A stretch of 64,000 bases of DNA, taken from assembly GCA_013298775.1 (NCBI GenBank), contig JAAFIV010000007.1:1-64000 (forward strand), in the 5' to 3' direction. The notes under the pieces are model-generated. The model was given only the letters and a program-made list of their open reading frames with translations, was not told where the DNA came from and searched no databases. The stretch is from Ignavibacteria bacterium. Its GTDB lineage: Bacteria > Bacteroidota > Ignavibacteria > Kapaibacteriales > UBA4661. A program made the position numbers and the translations under genes. Of the stretch, positions 7,691 through 60,830 are shown piece after piece (position 1 is the stretch's first letter; each line of letters opens with the position of its first letter).

Positions 7691-7833
7691 AATGTCATCA
7701 ACGTAAGCCCTCACCTCGCTCTGTGAGCGACCCTCTCCCAGAGGTAGAGGGTTTTGAGATGGCTCTATGTCTTGCCCTTCTCCTTCTGGGAGAAGGGTTG
7801 GGATGAGGGAAAAATCCTTACGTTGATGACATT
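7691..7833. repeat. Palindromic element B1 (CTCTCCC family)
   Basis: Perfect 17-bp terminal inverted repeats, AATGTCATCAACGTAAG at 7691-7707 and its complement at 7817-7833, enclose the B core. The core has CCCTCACC, a CTCTCCCAGAGG hairpin, then a CTTCTCCTTCTGGGAGAAGG hairpin and GGGATGAGGG. The element at 19071-19215 has the same organisation. It lies in the 635-bp gene-free stretch between ispF and the OmpA-domain gene. Confidence 0.92.
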
Positions 7834-13477: not shown

Positions 13478-13648
13478 TTGAAGTTTAGATAAAATTCTGA
13501 AAGCCGCATAAAACTATGACCTGCACGAAGCCCTCACCCAACCCTCTCCCAGGGGGAGAGGGCTTCAGAACCCTCATAGAATCTTGCCCTTCTCCCTCTG
13601 GGAGAAGGGTTGGGATGAGGGCGGCGCAAGAGTTTATCTAAACTTCAA
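13478..13648. repeat. Palindromic element B3
   Basis: Perfect 16-bp outer arms, TTGAAGTTTAGATAAA at 13478-13493 and its complement at 13633-13648, enclose a complete CTCTCCC core with two hairpins. The same outer arm sequence recurs at 48636 and 49013-49031 around a much longer, multiply nested content. This and the next element occupy most of the 500-bp gap between the two kinase genes. Confidence 0.92.
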
Positions 13649-19070: not shown

Positions 19071-19215
19071 CAATGTCATTACGTTAAGCCCTCACCCCGC
19101 TCTGCGAGCGACCCTCTCCCAGAGGGCGAGGGTGAAGAAACTGGCTCTAAATCTTGCCCCTCTACCTCTGGAAGAGGGGTTGGGGTGAGGGAAAACGCTT
19201 AACGTAATGACATTG
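19071..19215. repeat. Palindromic element B2 (CTCTCCC family)
   Basis: Perfect 18-bp terminal inverted repeats, CAATGTCATTACGTTAAG at 19071-19088 and its complement at 19198-19215, enclose the B core. The arms are related to those of B1 but differ at several bases; each difference is present in both arms of the same element. Confidence 0.92.
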
Positions 19216-38938: not shown

Positions 38939-39002
38939 TGAACGAAGGACATCAGGTACAACTCGACTTGAACTATTGCTTTGGTACTTGTTGGATGTAA
39001 TG

Positions 39003-39092
39003 AGAAGAACTAAGATTAGAAGAACTAAGATTAGAAGAACTAAGATTAGAAGAACTAAGATTAGAAGAACTAAGATTAGAAGAACTAAGATG
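39003..39092. repeat. tandem array, 15 bp x 6
   Basis: AGAAGAACTAAGATT is repeated six times without interruption, the last copy ending in TG. It is followed after 14 bases by element A7. It is intergenic; the unit is a multiple of three, so it produces an artificial Arg-Arg-Thr-Lys-Ile repeat frame. Spacers of unique sequence are absent, so it is not a CRISPR array. Confidence 0.95.
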
Positions 39093-39106
39093 GTACTCCA
39101 GCAAAT

Positions 39107-39184
39107 AGTGGCACAGACATTTTTGTCTGTGAGTGTTAGTGCGGGATTCAGGTGGAGAACACAGACAAGAATGTCTGTGCCACT
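39107..39184. repeat. Palindromic element A7
   Basis: The arms at 39107-39131 and 39160-39184 pair over 25 bp with one mismatch; the core is CAGACATTTTTGTCTG against CAGACAAGAATGTCTG. The loop has TGCGGGATTCAGGTGG, as in the other A copies. Confidence 0.92.
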
Positions 39185-42200: not shown

Positions 42201-42762
42201 TAATAGTATTGCTATGAACATCGTGGAAGTGGTGAACGATGTCGTGGAAGGCTACTATTTGCGAGCAAAAGACAAAGAAATCACCTTGCTGCTGAACACC
42301 GAAACCGACGAAATGATGACCTTTGCCGACCGTAATGCGTTTATGCAGGTCATGGAAAATCTTATTTCCAATGCTATCAAATATTCGCCGCTTGGCAAAA
42401 ATGTGTACGTCAATATCATCAGCTCCAGCACCGACGAAATGTCGGCACTCTTTACCCGCGAGCAAGCAGCACTGGAGCGCGTTCCCATGCAGCAAGCGCA
42501 TGTGCGTATTGAAATTCAAGATGAAGGACCTGGCTTATCCTCAGAAGACAAACAAAAACTCTTTGGGAAATTTGCCAAACTTTCGGCAAAACCCACTGGT
42601 GGCGAGCATTCGACGGGATTAGGTCTGTCTATTGTCAAGAAAATTGTCGAGGCAATGCAAGGGCGCGTTTGGTGTGAAACCGAACTCGGCGCAGGCGCAA
42701 CCTTCATTGTAGAGCTTCCGCTCGTGGAAATTCCGCCCGAAGCGGCATTGCAGGAAGACTAA
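39238..42762 (+). CDS. two-component-regulator-propeller sensor histidine kinase
   Basis: This 1174-residue protein begins with a leader whose DNA carries a 15-bp repeat (39316-39360), giving the odd FCAFRFCAFRFC. About a dozen propeller repeats follow (residues about 55-760; LYEDRSGTLWIGTRGGG, LLTDRAGTLWVGTQSGLS, IHEDRTGTLWVGTAGGL), enough for two seven-bladed propellers. A Y_Y_Y domain is next (about 765-860; YSCKLEGFDENWIDVG), one membrane helix (WWAKSLALLLSGLVVFIGY), a coiled coil, H-box IAAHDLKNPLTAIM, NLISNAIKYSPLGK, DEGPGLS and STGLGLSIVKK. In hybrid systems of this type the periplasmic propellers bind glycans. Here there is no receiver or AraC output domain, so signal must pass to a separate regulator. 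Confidence 0.93.
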   Translation: MNLHLYRKWLSRSRPHNASLLRCFLRFCAFRFCAFRFCSLLSFALCSLLVNAANAEQMRFRKISLEQGLSQSSVHAIVQDKQGFLWFGTQDGLNRFDGYTLTVFRQQQSNIANSLPNNCIQSLYEDRSGTLWIGTRGGGAVRRNPFTGAFAPAFAQQKSMLSSLEEQDVYAFAEDNAARIWIGTGAGLLRINPSNGAVEEVFSPKNSPLKQGMIRALLADASGVLWIGTPRGLFSYNPASKQWRDFQASSSLPDADIRAMIFPVRASGISSEELLLASASGISRLNTSTGALIATIPHQTRSASSVNALCATQNGVFWAGYGGDGIHECLAVLSEKPSIQERRALRHSLAHTQEYTHANSLSNDVILSLYFDRTGGLWVGTDGGGVSYAHPDEYRFETFTNDASSAGGNIVMAFSEERKNSSRAGEIWLGTHSGGITRFNPTTSSFTSYVNSPANKRSLPNNIVSALLTDRAGTLWVGTQSGLSKFNAATNDFINYFADANTATALPDNSVYGLLEDTHGNFWVGTNNGLARMNRENGTFTTFRSNTPSSNLTNSMSQSISSNAVRKIYEDRSGVLWIGTRGGGLNRFDPQSASFLHFRHNPSNPTSISSDFVLSIHEDRTGTLWVGTAGGLNKFDRTNGTFTAFRESDGLPNNYICGMLEDESGNLWLGTVRGICKFDPRTGKFTTFEELYNRAGSEFNQDACLKATNGMFYFGGINGLVRFHPDSIHTNFSVPSVVLTSFKKFNKPVDMNLLGDSLMPAKRELHLSVDDTFISFEFAALSFTLPHKISYSCKLEGFDENWIDVGNKREATYTNLDAGEYTFRVRATNYDGVWNDEGTRLRVIIHPHWWQTWWAKSLALLLSGLVVFIGYKWRIRSIESRSEALEQTVGERTAALSFSNREITRQNDSLMQLNQEKNEFLGIAAHDLKNPLTAIMMSSSIVKQYQNKMTADEVVEQMEHILITAKRMKETILNLLDINSIESGKFKFNSIAMNIVEVVNDVVEGYYLRAKDKEITLLLNTETDEMMTFADRNAFMQVMENLISNAIKYSPLGKNVYVNIISSSTDEMSALFTREQAALERVPMQQAHVRIEIQDEGPGLSSEDKQKLFGKFAKLSAKPTGGEHSTGLGLSIVKKIVEAMQGRVWCETELGAGATFIVELPLVEIPPEAALQED

Positions 42763-43062
42763 GAAAGTGTCTGAACATTACGCTGCCCTCATCCCAACCC
42801 TTCTCCCAAAGGGAGAAGGGCAAGACATAAAGCCACATCTGGAACCCTCTCCCTTTGGGAGAAGCAGGGCTGTTAAGTTCTGTTCCCGTGAAGCCCTCAC
42901 CCAACCCTCTCCCAGAAGGAGAGGGCTTCAGAAACGGCTCTGTGTCTTGCCCTTCTCCTTCTGGGAGAAGGGTTGGGATGAGGGCAAACACGAGAACTTA
43001 ACAGCCCTGCTTTGGGAGAGGGCAGGGTGAGGGGATTACAGGTAAATTTTCAGACACTTTCT
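42762..43062. repeat. Palindromic element B4, one element inserted in another
   Basis: The outer arms AGAAAGTGTCTGA (42762-42774) and its complement (43050-43062) enclose a CTCTCCC element. This element is split at its second hairpin by another complete palindrome with perfect 17-bp arms, GCAGGGCTGTTAAGTTC (42864-42880) and its complement (42994-43010). CTTTGGGAGA is present on both sides of the insert (42853-42862 and 43010-43019). The first base lies in the stop codon of the propeller kinase gene. Confidence 0.93.
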
Positions 43063-43103: not shown

Positions 43104-43206
43104 AAAAAAGTGATGCTCTCACTTCCTCGTAAGGGTCGCACTCTCGGCAATGATGGAAGATGGAAGCATAATGAGAGCCTTGAGTAAGAGTTGAGACCCT
43201 CATAAA
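43104..43206. repeat. degenerate D-family palindrome
   Basis: GTGATGCTCTCACTTCC at the left and GAGAGCC...GAGTTGAGACCCTC at the right resemble the GTGAGAGCCTCAC modules at 48796-48865 and 59009-59107, with more mismatches. It lies just before ppk1. Confidence 0.5.
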
Positions 43207-60651: not shown

Positions 60652-60830
60652 TGAGGAGTTCACCTTACACACTGCACGCACTTCCCTCACCCCTCGTCCC
60701 GAAGACGGTACGAGACCCTCTCCCAAAGGGCGAGGGTTAGAAGGCAGAAGATTCTGAAGCCCTCTCCCTCTGGGAGAGGGTTGGGTGAGGGCGGTATTGC
60801 TTGGCTTGTGTAAAGTGACTGAGGAGTTCA
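60652..60830. repeat. CTCTCCC element B6 flanked by 11-bp direct repeats
   Basis: TGAGGAGTTCA occurs at 60652-60662 and 60820-60830. The enclosed 157 bp begin with a TTACACA motif and end with TGTGTAA, then hold the CTCTCCC core. The direct repeats look like a target-site duplication. Confidence 0.85.

Follow-up and report, generated by a model that had tools for sequence, protein, structure and literature searches.

Two MITEs are nested in the 64,000-nucleotide stretch of Ignavibacteria DNA analysed here (the window): a 145-bp inner MITE at 42865-43009 interrupts a second, outer MITE at 42762-43062. Since the inner element entered a BoxC/PIT hairpin of another MITE, the two elements now lie one inside the other and the apex of that hairpin is duplicated. 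The sequences show copies of the inner element elsewhere, an intact paralogue of the host, target-site duplications, a target consensus and, in a relative, an ISAs1-family IS with cognate ends. What moved the inner element? It is probably a non-autonomous element whose ends are of the ISAs1 family and which a DDE transposase supplied from elsewhere inserted into a duplex palindromic target. In the mechanism we propose, a DDE cut-and-paste transposase acting in trans would bind the 17-bp ends of the inner MITE and join them, with a stagger of 11-12 bp, to a short palindrome of the form CC-N9/10-GG in duplex DNA, which here would lie in the second hairpin of the BoxC/PIT core carried by the outer MITE.

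The outer MITE, with ends AGAAAGTGTCTGAAMATT and its complement, has terminal inverted repeats at 42762-42779 (forward strand, where it overlaps the stop codon of the sensor kinase gene that lies upstream) and 43045-43062 (reverse strand), and includes the arms at 42762-42774 and 43050-43062 noticed in the initial annotation. The first BoxC/PIT unit of its core, the triplex motif of Holder et al. 2015, occupies 42786-42820 on the forward strand; its second unit, on the same strand, is split into a left half of the hairpin, CCCTCTCCCTTTGGGAGAAG (42845-42864), and a right half ending in GGGAGAGGGCAGGGTGAGGGG (43010-43034). On its two sides the insert has the copies of a 12-bp duplication, which differ at one base, CTTTGGGAGAAG (42853-42864, forward) and CTTTGGGAGAGG (43010-43021, forward); the earlier reading had correctly placed the apex on both sides of the insert but had seen only the first 10 bases of this duplication. 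The inner MITE is short and gene-free, and its 17-bp terminal inverted repeats are perfect, with CAGGGCTGTTAAGTTCT at 42865-42881 on the forward strand and its complement at 42993-43009 on the reverse strand. The inner arms first described at 42864-42880 and 42994-43010 are real, with the true ends at 42865-42881 and 42993-43009; the extra paired bases of the palindrome beyond the 17-bp ends are supplied by the target copies. Between the ends lies a 91-bp double BoxC/PIT core (42894-42984, reverse strand), and the element folds much more strongly than shuffled sequences (z = -13). An Rfam search of the window gave no match. Further upstream, a tandem repeat coding RRTKI units (38976-39130) lies at the start of a short ORF preceding the sensor kinase gene.

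Both palindromes contain the same core, as would be expected if they formed a single composite unit with the repeated apex as a part of its core, but each of them also occurs without the other. The inner element is found alone at more than 20 other places, and the outer MITE has an uninterrupted paralogue (L015) on contig C23 of the same genome, at about G000:C23:89682-89824. This paralogue contains the apex once, as CCCTCTCCCTCTGGGAGAGGG, so the second apex copy at 42762-43062 is not part of the core, and we regard the composite reading as practically refuted. When the two flanks of the host were joined in a script, with one duplicate omitted, the resulting 144-bp sequence aligned across the site with the paralogue at 127 of 144 identical columns. 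These comparisons and the duplications bear out the proposal of the initial annotation that one palindromic element had inserted into another with duplication of its target. A base-exact empty site was not found at orthologous loci, where no right flank is conserved enough: in the same-locus comparison, G005 has a ppk gene of 90% identity with a different gene upstream, and next to two further insertions the orthologous loci carry no MITE, with right flanks too diverged for a base-exact site.

The inner element belongs to a family with target-site duplications at many independent sites. Across the 5.19 Mb and 95 contigs of its own genome, six further sequences match it at 98-100% identity and several more at about 80-90%, and a search for its ends with up to 3 mismatches gave 60 matches, against 8 for the reversed pattern. 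Among 41 paired elements read from this genome and its relatives, 30 have clear duplications, of 11 bp (15 sites), 12 bp (11), 13 bp (3) or 14 bp (1). The same BoxC apex has been hit a second time independently, a kind of recurrence named as support when the insertion was first proposed: at the 3' end of contig C52 and the 5' start of C25, an 11-bp duplication, CTTTGGGAGAG, lies in a host element with different ends. Elements with the ends of the inner MITE (hereafter A-type) also sit inside copies of themselves, at an internal hairpin, in G009 (L120) and G002 (L130), and A-type ends enclose other cores as well, such as the TTTATCAAG hairpin.

The enzyme was expected to be encoded elsewhere, and this expectation held. 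G009, which represents a sister genus within the same family, contains a 1.2-kb IS (L116) with ends CAGGGCTGCTAAGTTCT that differ from those of the inner MITE at 1 of 17 bases, and this IS encodes an ISAs1 transposase, the two halves of its ORF matching NCBIfam NF033564 (ISAs1 family, DDE) with 100 and 139 bits at a cut-off of 70. The transposase gene is frameshifted and the flanks of the IS do not match each other, perhaps as a result of recombination; around it in G009 lie MITEs with the same ends. G001 holds a remnant of an ISAs1 gene with ends CAGGGTTGTTAAGTTC, and intact ISAs1 elements of the order (G018, G058) have CAGGGC ends, like the inner MITE, and 9-10 bp duplications. In the 95-contig assembly of its own genome we found no ISAs1 gene with matching ends, the sole match being a decayed copy with other ends. 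An IS4-family source was considered and rejected, as none of the three DDE_Tnp_1 loci in the genome has the ends of the inner MITE; the IS4 element L080 is bounded by different ends. Judging from these sequences, we infer that an ISAs1 transposase moved the inner MITE. The ISAs1 family, together with the H-repeats, thus offers the closest likeness in its ends and transposase, whereas the inner MITE has no transposase inside it, and its duplications of 11-14 bp, where those of the family are usually 8-10 bp, lead us to call it ISAs1-like rather than a plain member.

The initial annotation had looked instead to an enzyme like the IS200/IS605- and REP-associated TnpA proteins. On that reading a Y1 (HUH) enzyme would have moved the inner element in single-stranded form into the tip of a hairpin. 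The target is indeed a hairpin-forming repeat, and the recommended search for Y1-type genes did find two loci in the genome (on C1 and C8), but both are flanked by GTGAG..CTCAC or similar repeats rather than by CTCTCCC. IS200/IS605 and REP/RAYT elements are marked by subterminal hairpins, a Y1 gene nearby and no duplication; here most copies have long perfect ends and duplications of 11-14 bp, and the cognate ends are found on an ISAs1 IS. A Y1 enzyme is therefore a very improbable agent. The genome seems to have a REP/RAYT pair of its own, as repeats of the GTGAGGCTCTCAC type surround a Y1 (RAYT-like) gene in open frame at G000:C8:8052 (L065) and a similar repeat surrounds a broken Y1 copy at C1:198447 (L064); a degenerate repeat of this type occupies 43105-43190, just downstream of the nested element.

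A DDE transposase might still prefer extruded cruciforms, favouring hairpin tips beyond what the CC-N-GG sequence explains. About 14 of the 30 insertion sites lie in a single hairpin repeat, CCCCCTTTATCAAGGGGG, with others in BoxC apices, and the mean hairpin energy of the target sites is below random. After similar targets were merged, however, 17 distinct ones remained, and these fold into hairpins no more strongly than CC-N9-12-GG sites elsewhere (p = 0.42); 7 of the 17 form little or no hairpin (weaker than -2 kcal/mol), several of them lacking one. What the targets share is a palindromic CC-N9/10-GG: the two left border positions are C in 14 and 15 of the 17 and the two right border positions G in 16 and 15, with weak complementarity outside the borders. 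A symmetric motif trained on 11 targets, with both hairpin repeats left out, was used to score 1.2 million genome positions; the BoxC apex came out among the best 0.0002-0.01% of these and the TTTATCAAG apex (CTTTATCAAGG) among the best 0.02%. The motif is loose, 2 of the 11 training sites scoring poorly when left out. In the predicted fold of the intact host strand, moreover, the two hairpins pair with each other, so the insertion site need not be a tip at all. A preference for cruciforms strikes us as unlikely on this evidence. Folding of the target is not required for insertion, given the weak hairpins at 7 of 17 targets and the lack of any excess over comparable sites, and the earlier idea of an enzyme recognising folded single-stranded DNA is not supported; we infer a transposase that reads duplex rather than extruded hairpin DNA. 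The sequence motif largely accounts for the frequent use of hairpin repeats; selection for harmless sites may contribute, as may a degree of preference for cruciforms. The A-type MITE lands most often in the CCCCCTTTATCAAGGGGG repeat, which is present in about 30 copies per 1.2 Mb (for example L013, L034 and L058) and is also the core of some A-type MITEs.

We know of no CC-N9/10-GG palindromic target in the ISAs1 family. IS231, of the IS4 family, makes 10-12 bp duplications at the palindromic target GGGN5CCC, and so resembles the inner MITE in its working and duplication length but differs in transposase family and ends. A further parallel is provided by IS1397, ISPsy8 and ISRm22, which have transposases of several kinds and enter a repeated palindrome at its axis of symmetry (Tobes and Pareja 2006, PMC1525189); their targets are REP palindromes, whereas those described here are BoxC and TTTATCAAG hairpins together with non-repeat CC-N-GG sites.

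The CTCTCCC core itself is the known and widespread BoxC/PIT intrastrand triplex repeat: CCCTCAYCCCAACCC..GGGTTGGGTGAGGG consists of two TM units in inverted orientation, and the cores conform to CCCTCTCCC-loop-GGGAGAGGG-spacer-GGGTGAGGG when compared with Table 1 of Holder et al. 2015 (PMC4666352). The BoxC/PIT/TM repeats of E. coli are paired in a like manner, type A with type B (PMC4666352). Holder et al. 2015 never found transposase or integrase remnants around the BoxC/PIT motif in E. coli (PMC4666352), whereas here the cores are enclosed in MITE ends. At least five end types enclose them, namely A (the ISAs1-type ends), B TTGAAGTTTAGATAAA, C AGAGAGTGTCTGAAAATT, D AATGTCATTACGTTAAG and E ACTCACCTTACGCA, and the five sequences are not alike when compared. 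The nested pair combines an inner MITE in frame A with an outer one in frame C, and the window also holds double cores in frame B (13531-13621), frame D (7708-7809 and 19089-19191) and frame E (60691-60791).

Among 59 double cores in 1.264 Mb of the genome, 39 lie between both ends of one type (A 12, B 11, C 1, D 5, E 10), 3 have one end and 17 have none of the five types, at least 2 of these 17 having other inverted ends; random flanks matched both ends in 3 of 4000 trials. The list of five types was derived from this same sample, so a test that leaves the list unused is fairer: inverted repeats scoring at least 10 flank 34 of the 59 cores, against 1.4% of random pairs. Between frames A, B and C the cores agree at 78-83 of their 91 positions, and in G005, G007 and G009, too, cores lie within frames B and D. 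Loci of other bacteria amounting to about 1 Mb contained a single double core, from one cyanobacterium, which is not enough for a test of the frames. Bare double cores with no recognisable terminal repeats or duplications also occur (L308, L310, L311, L315, L317 and L334), and one of them, L311, is present at the same place in G005 (L360).

The occurrence of BoxC/PIT inside at least five types of mini-transposon hints at how the repeat spreads. We tentatively suggest, as a possibility somewhat short of probable, that BoxC/PIT spreads as cargo of several unrelated MITE families and that its apex, as a preferred landing site of A-type elements, lets the cargo recruit further insertions and build nests. 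In the open-access papers searched we found no prior report of BoxC as MITE cargo, and the novelty lies in this modular interchange of BoxC/PIT cores and MITE ends.

In conclusion, the new single-strand mobile system that had been suggested for this locus gives way to one MITE inserted in another, with a candidate for the enzyme. With one cargo shared among five unrelated end types, it becomes of interest how MITEs capture or exchange their cores, and carriage by MITEs offers a testable route for the previously unexplained spread of BoxC/PIT.
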